This document shows positions 31,749-35,151 of a stretch of DNA of 50,754 nucleotides, in pieces. Positions within the stretch are counted from its first letter, which is position 1, and the number at the start of each line of letters is the position of its first letter. The stretch is from NCBI GenBank assembly GCA_017467805.1, contig JAFUKJ010000029.1, forward strand, positions 1 through 50,754, given 5' to 3'. Under the pieces are notes generated by a model that had not been told where the DNA came from, did not search any database, and worked only from the letters and a program-made list of their open reading frames with translations. The stretch comes from Lachnospiraceae bacterium. Its GTDB lineage: Bacteria > Bacillota > Clostridia > Lachnospirales > Lachnospiraceae. A program made the translations under genes and the position numbers.

Positions 31749-33560
31749 GTGGGTAAAAGTTCAAAGGGAATAAATATATATTTCTTGGTAATAGCGATTT
31801 TATTGCTTGTCACGGTGTGGGTTAGTACAATAAATGAGCAGACTGATGATTATACAAAAGGTGAGTTCATAGAGCAGCTTGAGCAGGGTGAAGTCGTTTA
31901 TGTTGAGATTCATCCTAATGCAGAGGTACCGACAGGTACATTATTGATTCAGTTTAATGATGGAACTAAGAGAACCTTACATGTGTCTGATGTAGTGGCT
32001 ATGCAGGAGACGTTGACTACTGAGTATCAGATAGACCCGATTGTAGAGGATGTTCCACAGGAGAATTGGTTCCTGTCAGATATATTACCGATATTGCTGA
32101 TATTGATTTTTGGTGTGTTTATGTTCGCGATGATGAATGCACAGAATGCCAATAGCGGCGGTGGCGGTAAGATGATGAACTTTGGTAAGAGTCGCGCCCG
32201 TGTTTCTACAGGAGGCGAGATTACCTTAAAGGATGTTGCAGGTCTTCGTGAAGAGAAAGAGGACATGGAGGAAATCGTTGATTTCTTAAGATGTCCATCA
32301 AAGTATACAAAGGTAGGAGCAAGAATTCCTAAGGGTGTTCTCTTAGAGGGTGCGCCAGGTACAGGTAAGACATTGCTTGCAAAGGCAATCGCAGGAGAAG
32401 CGAATGTACCATTTTTCTCTATTTCAGGTTCTGATTTCGTAGAGATGTTTGTTGGTGTTGGTGCTTCCCGTGTACGTGATTTGTTTGCAGAGGCGAAAAA
32501 GAATGCACCATGTATCGTGTTTATCGATGAGATAGATGCAGTTGCCAGAAAGCGTGGTACTGGTATGGGCGGTGGACACGATGAAAGAGAGCAGACATTG
32601 AATCAGCTCTTGGTAGAGATGGACGGTTTTGGTACGAATGAAGGTATCATTGTTATGGCAGCGACCAACCGTGTAGATATCTTAGATCCTGCTATTTTAA
32701 GACCAGGACGTTTTGATAGAAAGATTAGTGTGCAGACACCTGATGTAGGTGGCAGAGAAGAGATTTTGCAGGTACATGCAAAGGATAAGCCGCTTGCAGA
32801 GGATGTGGATTTGAAACAGATTGCGCAGACTACAGCAGGCTTTACAGGCGCGGATTTGGAGAATCTGTTAAATGAGTCTGCGATTCTTGCCGCAAAGGAA
32901 GATAGAGCATTTATTGTTCAGGAGGATATTAAGAAGGCATTTATCAAGGTTGGTATTGGTGCAGAGAAGAAGAGTCGTATTATCTCTGATAAGGAGAAGA
33001 AGATTACTGCTTATCATGAGGCAGGTCATGCAATTCTCTTCCATGTACTTCCTGATGTAGGACCTGTATATACAGTGTCAATTATTCCTACAGGTCTTGG
33101 TGCAGCGGGTTATACGATGCCATTGCCTGAGCGTGATGAGATGTTCAATACCAAAGGTAAGATGTTACAGGATATTATGGTATCACTTGGCGGACGTATT
33201 GCTGAGGAGATTATCTTTGATGATATTACAACAGGTGCATCCAGCGATATTAAGAAGGCAACAAAGGTTGCAAGAGCAATGGTGACCAGATTCGGTATGT
33301 CAGAGAATATTGGTGTTATCAATTATGATGAAAGTGATAATGAGGTGTTCATCGGTCGTGACCTTGCTCACACCAGAAGTCATTCCGAAGAGGTGGCAGG
33401 CACTATTGATAAGGAAGTGAAGAACATTATTGATGATTGCTATGCGAAGGCTAAGAGTATCATCATGCAGCATGAGAAGGTACTTCATGCTTGTGCAGAG
33501 CTTCTTTTGGAGAAGGAAAAGATTACGCGCGATGAGTTCGAAGCATTATTTGAGTGCTAG
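31749..33560 (+). CDS. ftsH: ATP-dependent zinc metalloprotease FtsH
   Basis: The 603-aa membrane-anchored AAA+ protease has two membrane helices (about 8-25 and 110-128) around an extracytoplasmic domain. Then Walker A GAPGTGKT, Walker B VFIDEIDA, the SRH region [20 protein letters not shown] and the zinc motif HEAGH follow. It degrades membrane and short-lived proteins such as SpoVM-bound substrates in spore formers. It begins with GTG (AAGGAG 7 nt before). Coding ends with a short FECTER-less tail, shorter than the Escherichia protein but usual for Clostridia. Confidence 0.95.
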
Positions 33561-33571
33561 GATGATAAAGT

Positions 33572-33616
33572 GTCCCAGGTTTGCAGATATATTAGTGAAC
33601 CTGGGACTTATGTTTT
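33572..33616 (+). terminator. probable terminator after ftsH
   Basis: A 10-bp perfect stem (GTCCCAGGTT at 33572-33581 against 33598-33607) with a 16-nt loop; the T-run is broken (TTATGTTTT). Confidence 0.6.
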
Positions 33617-33656
33617 GCCCAATAATTTAGCACGCTAATGTACAAAATACAAAAAG

Positions 33657-33710
33657 TGTATATTGCATAAATCGACACAAAAAAACTGATTTTTGTATAT
33701 TTTGCATAAA
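33657..33710. repeat. AT-rich direct repeats upstream of an orphan promoter
   Basis: TGTATATTGCATAAA at 33657-33671 recurs as TGTATATTTTGCATAAA at 33694-33710, 37 bp away, both ahead of the promoter at 33751. Possible regulator sites. Confidence 0.35.
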
Positions 33711-33750
33711 AATACAACTGTAAAATTGTAAAGTTTGTGAAATGTAAGAA

Positions 33751-33779
33751 TAGACGAAAAAGGGGTCTATTGCTATAAT
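33751..33779 (+). promoter_or_regulatory. orphan sigma-A promoter ahead of a structured RNA region
   Basis: TAGACG (33751-33756), a 17-bp spacer and TATAAT (33774-33779). It is not followed by any protein gene for 700 bp, so it should drive an untranslated RNA. Confidence 0.65.
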
Positions 33780-33785
33780 CATACT

Positions 33786-33882
33786 TGTAACCCCCCCAAT
33801 ATATTATATAGTTTTTTGCTATACCCCATAAGAAAGAAATACCTTCTCTAAAAGAGACAGCCTGTAACGGACTGTCTTTTTT
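33786..33882 (+). ncRNA. possible ~97-nt short RNA ending at an intrinsic terminator
   Basis: From the expected start of the 33751 promoter the RNA would carry a run of seven C, an AT-rich stretch and then a terminator stem at 33855-33877 (AGACAG with CTGTCT, plus an inner CC/GG pair) followed by a T-run to 33882. Whether polymerase stops here or reads on into the large RNA cannot be told from sequence. Confidence 0.4.
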
Positions 33883-33889
33883 ACTACCC

Positions 33890-34190
33890 AAATTCGGGTT
33901 TGTCGACTTCTCTCGGCGCAAGCCCTAACAGGTTTCATTCGAAAGCTAGAGCTTCGGGTTAAGAGTTTCTAGGTGCTTTTGTCTAAGTATTCTATATGTA
34001 CGGAACCAGCGGGAATTCGGCGTCCATGCCTCAATTCCCGCCTAGCGCCTTCGTCCAGGCGGCACTTTCCTGTGTACTCAAAAAGCACTAAGAAACTCTT
34101 CTACTCGTAGCGTCTACTTTTGCGTTAAACCATAGTTCGTTCCATGGAGTAGGACAGAGTACCGTCCGTTAGTTCGACAAACCCGAATTT
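33890..34190 (+). ncRNA. large structured RNA, class not recognised
   Basis: The region is closed by a perfect 17-bp helix (33890-33906 with 34174-34190), which can be extended by ACTAC/GTAGT (33883-33887 with 34197-34201). Inside are a 19-bp helix with one A-A mismatch (33961-33980 with 34081-34100), a 9-bp hairpin (34009-34017 with 34033-34041), a hairpin at 34046-34061, a 6-bp helix (34101-34106 with 34147-34152) and GGC-GCAA-GCC with a GNRA loop (33915-33924). G-U pairs and the GNRA loop favour the plus strand. I see no protein frame. It is not tmRNA, SRP RNA or RNase P by their usual conserved cores. Details are in the findings. Confidence 0.75.
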
Positions 34191-34200
34191 AAAAAAGTAG

Positions 34201-34229
34201 TGGACAAATGTGTGTTGGGTGCATATAAT
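34201..34229 (+). promoter_or_regulatory. sigma-A promoter of ribU
   Basis: TGGACA (34201-34206), 17-bp spacer, TATAAT (34224-34229), about 50 bp ahead of the FMN riboswitch. Its -35 touches the end of the large RNA element. Confidence 0.8.
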
Positions 34230-34278
34230 AGCAATTGCAGGAGATGAACAATCACCGATTTCAAAATAGAATATTGAA

Positions 34279-34388
34279 GTCTTTGTGGCAGGGTGCAAGT
34301 CCCTACCGATGGTAAAGTCCATGACCCGCGTAAGCGGCTGAGCTGGTGAGATTCCAGCACCGACGGTATAGTCCGGATGAGAAAAGAC
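34279..34388 (+). promoter_or_regulatory. FMN riboswitch (RFN element)
   Basis: The aptamer shows the conserved strings GGCAGGGTG, AGTCCCTACCGA, GAGATTCCAGCACCGACGGT and ATAGTCCGGATGA, with GTCTTT/AAAAGAC as the closing helix. It senses FMN and turns ribU off when flavin is plentiful. Confidence 0.97.
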
Positions 34389-34406
34389 ATTTTCTGTGAA
34401 TTTTCA

Positions 34407-34443
34407 CGCCCAAGGCATAACTATGTTTTGGGCGTTTCGTTTT
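34407..34443 (+). terminator. riboswitch-controlled terminator
   Basis: CGCCCAA (34407-34413) pairs with TTGGGCG (34428-34434), with an inner CATA/TATG stem, followed by TTTCGTTTT. It is the expression platform of the FMN riboswitch and must be read through for ribU expression. Confidence 0.8.
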
Positions 34444-34506
34444 GCTCTAAGACTTGGAGCAGGACAGGGTGTCGTCAGGACACAAGAAAGGAAAGGGTGA
34501 TGTATT

Positions 34507-35151
34507 ATGACAAACGAAACAACAAATGTAACTGTTAACCAAGGTTCTAAGAGTAAGATGCGTGCAAAGGAGATTACATTTATCTCTTTAATGGGTGCGC
34601 TGGCAGCTGTATTGATGCTATTTAAGTTTCCGCTTCCAATGATGCCTCCATTTATGGATTTCGATTTTGCAGGCGTAGTGGAAATTGTTGGCGGATTAAT
34701 GTTTGGTCCCGTGGCAGCAGTTTATATCATTATTGTAAAGATACTTTTGAAGATGGTAATGATGGGGAGTACTTCAATAGGTACTGGCGAGATACAGAAT
34801 GTATTGCTTAGCTGCGCGTATGTACTTCCGGCTGTATTTCTATACAGACGAAACAAGACAAAAAAGATGGCAATCATAGGGTTGTTATTAGGAACTATTG
34901 CGGCAATTGTGGTAGCAATACTTACAAATTTGTATTTGATTATTCCGTTTTATGCAAATCTGGCAGGAATGACTGTAGAGGATATCATTGGAATGTGTAC
35001 TGCAGTAAATCCTGCGGTAACTGATATGACAAGCTTTGTAATACTTGGCATTATACCATTCAATGTGATTAAGTATGGTGGTTCTTCAATACTTACTATG
35101 GCTTTATATAAGCATTTGAGCAAGCCTATTAAGAAATTTATTAATAACTAA
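34507..35151 (+). CDS. ribU: Riboflavin ECF transporter substrate-binding component RibU
   Basis: The 214-aa membrane S-component binds riboflavin and works with a shared ECF energizing module (EcfA1A2T, not in the window). It has a polar N-terminus and about five to six membrane helices; FKFPLPMMPPFMDFDFAG is the flavin-facing loop found in RibU, with GPVAAVYIIIVKILLK after. The upstream FMN riboswitch independently supports the assignment. Ribosome binding site GAAAGGAAAGGG. Confidence 0.95.
   Translation: MTNETTNVTVNQGSKSKMRAKEITFISLMGALAAVLMLFKFPLPMMPPFMDFDFAGVVEIVGGLMFGPVAAVYIIIVKILLKMVMMGSTSIGTGEIQNVLLSCAYVLPAVFLYRRNKTKKMAIIGLLLGTIAAIVVAILTNLYLIIPFYANLAGMTVEDIIGMCTAVNPAVTDMTSFVILGIIPFNVIKYGGSSILTMALYKHLSKPIKKFINN

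Follow-up and report, generated by a model that had tools for sequence, protein, structure and literature searches.

A TwoAYGGAY module within a candidate decayed MITE-like repeat between ftsH and ribU of a Lachnospiraceae bacterium

The stretch of DNA analysed here, referred to as the window, comprises 50,754 nucleotides of a Lachnospiraceae bacterium (GenBank assembly GCA_017467805.1, contig JAFUKJ010000029.1), and the element under study occupies positions 33890-34190. The gene to its left encodes FtsH and the gene to its right the substrate-binding component of an ECF transporter, which was assigned as RibU since it follows an FMN riboswitch (Table 1). A preliminary description, made from the sequence alone, had regarded this riboswitch as a separate unit with its own promoter, which is borne out by the RF00050 match and by a promoter-like site on the plus strand. 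The terminator-like hairpin on the other side of the element has an 11-base loop, which lies beyond the rule of the scan, and it was hence not listed there. A simple sigma-70 scan of 33700-34520 detected no promoter-like site on the minus strand. Separately, a strong hairpin (GTCCCAGGTT...AACCTGGGAC) follows ftsH at 33564-33619; a match to mir-583 at these positions was far under the cut-off of that family and is surely due to chance.

Table 1. Features of the ftsH-ribU interval in the window (C20, a contig of the same genome, G000; G209, a genome of the same genus; TIR, terminal inverted repeat)
Feature	Positions	Strand	Basis
Terminator-like hairpin AGACAG...CTGTCT with T run, left of the element	33855..33882		seen directly
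Left TIR, AAATTCGGGTTTGTCGA	33890..33906	+	sequence script; recurs elsewhere in genome
Left-end arm of the element; its C20 pairing partner sits in the middle that is absent from the window	33907..33960		C20 match
TwoAYGGAY (RF01731) core: long stem around two GGA-loop hairpins	33948..34114	-	cmscan
Arm 1 of core-enclosing stem, partner 34081-34100	33961..33980		sequence script
Hairpin 2, sense tip GGC-AUGGAC-GCC, AYGGAY loop	34009..34041	-	sequence; Rfam alignment
Hairpin 1, sense CGCC-UGGACGAA-GGCG, GGA in loop	34046..34061	-	sequence; Rfam alignment
Arm 2 of core-enclosing stem	34081..34100		sequence script; matches to C20 pair
Right-end arm; its match in C20 is to the pair's second, opposite unit	34101..34173		C20 match; close match in G209
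Right TIR	34174..34190	-	sequence script; recurs elsewhere in genome
Promoter-like site of ribU/FMN, TGGACA-17-TATAAT, outside the element, starting 11 bp beyond it	34201..34229	+	promoter scan
FMN riboswitch, separate; RNA control	34275..34392	+	RF00050, 108.3 bits

The helices reported in the preliminary description were checked by script. The two ends of the element are exact complements over 17 bp, the 5-bp extension (33883-33887 with 34197-34201) does pair, both inner hairpins are present in the sequence, and the stem enclosing them is complementary save for one A-A mismatch, with one further position that is G-U on the plus strand and A-C on the minus strand. When 33870-34215 was shuffled 500 times with dinucleotides preserved, no perfect inverted repeat exceeded 12 bp, a length reached in two shuffles. 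The multi-helix structure is likewise real, with a folding energy far under that of the shuffles on both strands (z of -8.5 for plus and -6.4 for minus). Since both strands fold far better than shuffles, energy does not fix the strand.

Scanning with cmscan against Rfam 15 placed TwoAYGGAY (RF01731) on the minus strand, with 75.9 bits against a gathering score of 43 (E 3.9e-11) and a match to model positions 1-168 of 168. The claim that the stretch belonged to no known class is thereby overturned, and the accompanying remark that it might be a class not recognised at the time proved right. Only FMN and TwoAYGGAY reached the gathering score in 33560-34500 among the Rfam 15 classes, and an identity as OLE, raiA, ROOL, GOLLD or HEARO was rejected, none of these giving a match at cut-off there. 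The window copy shares with the family the full model match, the two terminal hairpins with GGA loops and the enclosing stem, but differs from it in being rearranged and in its first loop. The second loop (AUGGAC) fits AYGGAY, whereas the first (UGGACGAA) is altered and longer, retaining GGA but not the hexaloop. GGA is found in the two loops on the minus strand, with UCC at the same places on plus. Weinberg et al. (2010, PMC2864571) classed TwoAYGGAY as a likely RNA that is unlikely to be cis-regulatory; transposon-like dispersal goes unmentioned in the passages on the family in that paper, and a search of main-text passages found no literature describing TwoAYGGAY as mobile.

The outer 17-bp helix had been taken to close a single RNA of about 300 nt. 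It is instead the TIR of a dispersed repeat, common to other copies in the same genome (G000), of which at least one lacks the module. A BLAST search of this genome with the element returned 17 matches, the query's own among them, and RF01731 has six matches in it, counting that of the window and one partial. By eye, one copy (C18) is a miniature of about 60 bp running from TIR to TIR, the TIR adjoins another repeat at contig ends in C53, C68 and C16, and a terminator-like hairpin adjoins several of these copies. An exact 18-mer TIR scan of genome contigs, from which own-genome records were perhaps excluded, gave nine stretches; Rfam, run on one of them (L214), found no TwoAYGGAY. In the own genome, no autonomous element bounded by such TIRs was recognised.

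Further features of this genome were observed. A repeat of about 250 bp (L014, 1-250) has some 16 strong matches, of which many fall at the ends of contigs and some lie beside TIR ends of the family; it may represent one end of a larger element that has been collapsed. L028 (400-600) and L012 contain a tandem-like array of GGTGTACAGCAG / CTGCTGTGGTACACC units within a larger dispersed repeat. In the best-scoring own-genome copy (L018, G000:C120, 1300-1900), a quite different outer stem of about 30 bp replaces the TIR, as judged by eye.

Contig C20 of the same genome holds two units head to head, and comparison with this pair suggests how the window copy arose. Positions 33889-34099 of the window match C20:27564-27774 (88% by BLAST) and positions 34081-34189 match C20:28043-28150 (81%); a gap of about 270 bp separates the two matches in C20, and the window copy lacks this stretch with the second module in it. 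The matches overlap at 34081-34099, in a strand of the stem, which is the presumed deletion junction, and the window copy thus looks like a head-to-head pair that has lost about 270 bp from its middle. The partner of the left-end arm was read by eye in both C20 and G209. Because the stretches between TIR and core match different arms of a longer paired element, the 'closed architecture' of the preliminary description is unlike a conserved RNA fold.

Among 39 genomes, G209 alone gave a clear orthologue of the ribU locus, and the site is occupied there as well. The G209 element closely resembles that of the window at its right end and has the same ribU side, but carries TwoAYGGAY on the strand of the FMN riboswitch, i.e. 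opposite to the window, and retains the middle of a C20-like pair up to the contig end, the contig stopping short of the ftsH side. The opposite module and the pair middle make it probable that a pair once stood at the ribU locus and that the window kept its other unit. Paired units also occur elsewhere: in G086, 13 of 18 opened units are preceded by a stretch that recurs in other copies. Those of these stretches that were read by eye carry the module inverted and thus make up head-to-head pairs; more pairs of this kind appear among the genomes counted in full. The units of G176 are single.

TwoAYGGAY was detected in 35 of 200 genomes of the family of the window, and in relatives the element is dispersed. 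Full counts in 11 genomes, chosen from this screen for many matches (a value of 13 in the screen meaning at least 13), were 50, 47, 40, 32, 31, 23, 20, 18, 16, 12 and 8, and a full count of G196, of the genus of the window, gave 0. In G176 the TIR pattern ATTCGGGTGTCAAAAGGT, allowing up to two mismatches, matched 72 times, compared to once for the reversed control. Some TIR pairs stand about 310 bp apart and enclose a TwoAYGGAY core, while others, 71-201 bp apart, are too short for core and TIRs; since such pairs have no room for the module, it seems unneeded for movement. No TIR pair 1-3 kb apart, as an autonomous partner would show, occurs among the 72 matches.

Target duplication by a mobile element, which the preliminary description had named as evidence against its structured RNA, was found in the relatives G176 and G122, but the window copy shows none to the eye, and neither do those own-genome copies that were looked at. 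Of 49 G176 and G122 units, 14 fitted the TIR expressions and were scored, the 7-bp length and the expressions having been set after a first look at the data. Direct repeats identical at six or seven positions flank 10 of these 14 copies, and one copy (L111) matches at 0 of 7; overall, the flanks agree at 80 of 98 positions, whereas 10000 shuffles average 55.7 and never exceed 74. For the G176 insertion L163, 29 genomes of its genus were searched. It is missing in all eight relatives that were opened, where both flanks are present with 16-123 bp between them and not the element of about 320 bp; because these spacers differ, the exact insertion point is unreadable. In G647, matches to the end of the element lie between the flanks (as judged from search matches), so that the site may be occupied or reused. 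Among G122 copies (e.g. L152, upstream 400 bp), a second type of TIR, AATTCTGATTTGTA, was seen by eye to border longer elements holding TwoAYGGAY and another conserved stretch of about 250 bp.

For the comparison of copies, 121 cores were available as units opened in 28 genomes, compared to 297 matches in the 11 full-count genomes alone. Duplicates were left out, as were single loci that lacked a strand assignment (G163, G083 and G034) and that of G168, which enters only the alignment described below; the strands of L069 and L070 were assigned by eye from the loops. The genes around the units lie in the same orientation on both sides in 29 cases, opposite on both sides in 31 and mixed in 17 and 14, with the 30 of 121 that lacked a called gene on both sides (at edges) kept out of these classes. 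Such random orientation fits insertion and not cis-regulation, and cis-regulation of ribU was rejected on account of this randomness together with the separate FMN riboswitch. The module of the window itself is antisense to both neighbouring genes. Random orientation and the lack of a minus-strand promoter-like site therefore favour a mobile carrier expressed by read-through.

The GGA loops direct attention to CsrA, which is encoded in the own genome (G000:C96:1965-2123, E 2.4e-25) together with FliW. At the family level, CsrA (PF02599, over cut-off) is found in 34 of 35 TwoAYGGAY genomes compared to 74 of 165 others (p 1.8e-9), and at the class level in 31 of 36 (counting matches with E up to 0.001; the figure is 23 of 27 for those above the Rfam cut-off) compared to 94 of 355 (p 2e-12), in Fisher tests that ignore phylogeny and on samples that share genomes. 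Positives without a CsrA match are G168 at the family level and G413, G454, G493, G511 and G553 (80-98% complete) at the class level. FliW is present in 105 of the 200 family genomes (32 of 35 positives and 73 of 165 others) and adjoins CsrA in many genomes. As FliW tracks TwoAYGGAY almost as closely as CsrA does, the association may reflect lineage or motility, and the two correlates are hardly separable; a single case, G143 with its 50 copies, has a divergent CsrA match and no FliW match. A second, divergent CsrA-like protein of 95-98 aa is encoded beside a flagellin-like gene in L237 (G042:C54, 1977-2264) and L238 (G143:C16, 2329-2625), with a divergently encoded protein of about 193 aa, a putative tyrosine recombinase, and weaker CsrA matches of the divergent kind occur in G008, G037, G060 and G157.

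Motif matches led to the proposal, in 2014, that TwoAYGGAY sequesters CsrA (PMC4333381). The loop with its closing C-G resembles the SELEX consensus of CsrA, RUACARGGAUGU, as cited in a review (PMC7652899). A strict ACA(N)GGAYGT was present in hairpin 1 of 52 of 121 cores and in none of the five own-genome cores tested.

Taken together, the stretch is best explained, with a confidence somewhat above even, as a decayed MITE-like TIR repeat that carries TwoAYGGAY on the minus strand as its cargo, a predicted CsrA decoy. Copies would be transcribed by read-through or from a distant promoter, and the sense RNA would then present two GGA-loop hairpins able to bind a CsrA dimer. Jointly, the copies may act as decoys for CsrA or, alternatively, put CsrA sites into neighbouring transcripts, and a head-to-head pair would yield one sense module whichever way it is read. 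CsrA binding, expression and a benefit of the copies are what we infer from this arrangement. The window copy is one lone unit, rearranged and antisense to its two neighbours, and is probably a relic that functions weakly or not at all.

MITEs are non-autonomous elements bounded by TIRs. Like bacterial MITEs, the element has TIRs, is short and dispersed and comes in several size classes, and copies in relatives show target duplication and, for one insertion, probably unoccupied sites. It differs from them in its cargo of a conserved hairpin module, which some genomes carry twice in head-to-head arrangement, in that no autonomous partner was found among the sequences searched and in the window copy showing no visible target duplication. 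With CsrA-antagonist sRNAs of the CsrB/RsmY type, TwoAYGGAY shares GGA in hairpin loops, paired sites and co-occurrence with CsrA, but it comes as many dispersed copies with two sites per unit, no promoter was found by the scan, and FliW is present in the same genomes. FliW is absent from Gammaproteobacteria according to the review cited above (PMC7652899).

A possible, though rather unlikely, explanation is that the module works at the DNA level, its hairpins and loops acting as single-stranded or cruciform DNA in transposition or arising as by-products of template switching, with RNA and CsrA incidental. The mobile-element context, the random orientation and the lack of a detected promoter suit such a module, and so do the substitution patterns. 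In alignment A3 (35 oriented cores from 29 genomes), double-sided changes occur at 36 of 37 predicted pairs. Its helix cells are strand-symmetric, with 25 G-U, 30 A-C and 121 other non-pairs, where misaligned cells alone would by our estimate give about 30 each of G-U and A-C. As there is no G-U excess over A-C, the helices give no sign of selection for RNA wobble. The FMN riboswitch, used as control with 21 sequences from the genus of the window, had 16 G-U, 0 A-C and 4 others (Fisher 3.4e-5, the cells being non-independent and FMN the more conserved family). Counts in 120 cores (the 121 minus one core with an N) were similarly near even, at 37 G-U and 32 A-C in the main stem, 3 and 1 in hairpin 1, and 8 and 6 in hairpin 2.

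The arms outside the core gave 141 G-U against 79 A-C overall, with 30 against 24 in G122, 50 against 3 in G176 (inflated by near-identical copies) and 17 against 3 in G086, the last of which fits selection on RNA and speaks against a module acting purely as DNA. In G086, each of the 18 units has two arms that agree more closely with one another than with arms from other copies (medians 23.2 and 7.0); the same holds for 4 of 5 in G004, 2 of 9 in G143, 5 of 29 in G122 and 0 of 20 in G176, where the arms are shared TIR sequence. Template switching has been reported to create and maintain hairpins (PMC8794818), and between inverted repeats it could keep arms matched. Against a purely DNA-level role stands the one-stranded GGA, which 117 of 121 cores carry in the two loop zones alike (Rfam detection favours copies of this kind) and which 4 lack in a loop zone, compared to TCC in 39 and 37. 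The host range that tracks CsrA, and the short TIR pairs that seem to move without the module, likewise argue against it. On the preferred reading, that of a decoy-carrying repeat, the stems would be kept complementary at least partly at the DNA level, through template-switch homogenisation of inverted repeats, and the GGA loops by selection for binding. As a general caution, a mobile palindrome can show strong covariation even when the G-U signature left by selection on RNA is lacking.

Other explanations fare less well. That the window locus holds a dedicated minus-strand sRNA gene, a CsrA sponge like CsrB/RsmY with its own promoter, is improbable: the GGA hairpins, the CsrA and FliW of the genome and the element at the same locus in G209 would suit it, but the minus strand has no promoter-like site in the scan, the G209 module is oppositely oriented, the window copy matches a pair with its middle missing, and only two sites are present. 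That the element works between ftsH and ribU as an insulator or a bidirectional terminator, as might be thought of for a long stable hairpin beside a terminator-like hairpin and near the ribU promoter-like site, is very improbable, given that opened copies show no preference for gene ends (106 3' against 103 5' ends, using a crude ORF caller). Slightly less probable still is the new class of large plus-strand RNA closed by the 17-bp helix, for which the better fold on plus and the right end conserved in G209 may be adduced, but which is contradicted by the RF01731 match on minus, by UCC rather than GGA in its loops, by the recurrence of its terminal helix as a TIR at other insertions and by its GNRA loop (33915-33924), which reads GGC-GCCC-GCC in the sister copy on C20; the plus-strand argument from the G-U pair fails too, one such pair being insufficient to set the strand.

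Returning to the repeat with its predicted CsrA decoy, a wider proposal, which we regard as tentative and doubtful, is that TwoAYGGAY as a family constitutes a transposable CsrA-decoy system, in which transposition would tune the CsrA network by copy number alongside FliW. If true, RNA and protein antagonists of CsrA would act together in these bacteria, and an orphan Rfam family would be recast as the cargo of mobile elements. Whether FliW and sRNAs jointly modulate CsrA in any species was described as still to be determined in a 2020 review (PMC7652899), and the occurrence of TwoAYGGAY in genomes with FliW bears on that question.
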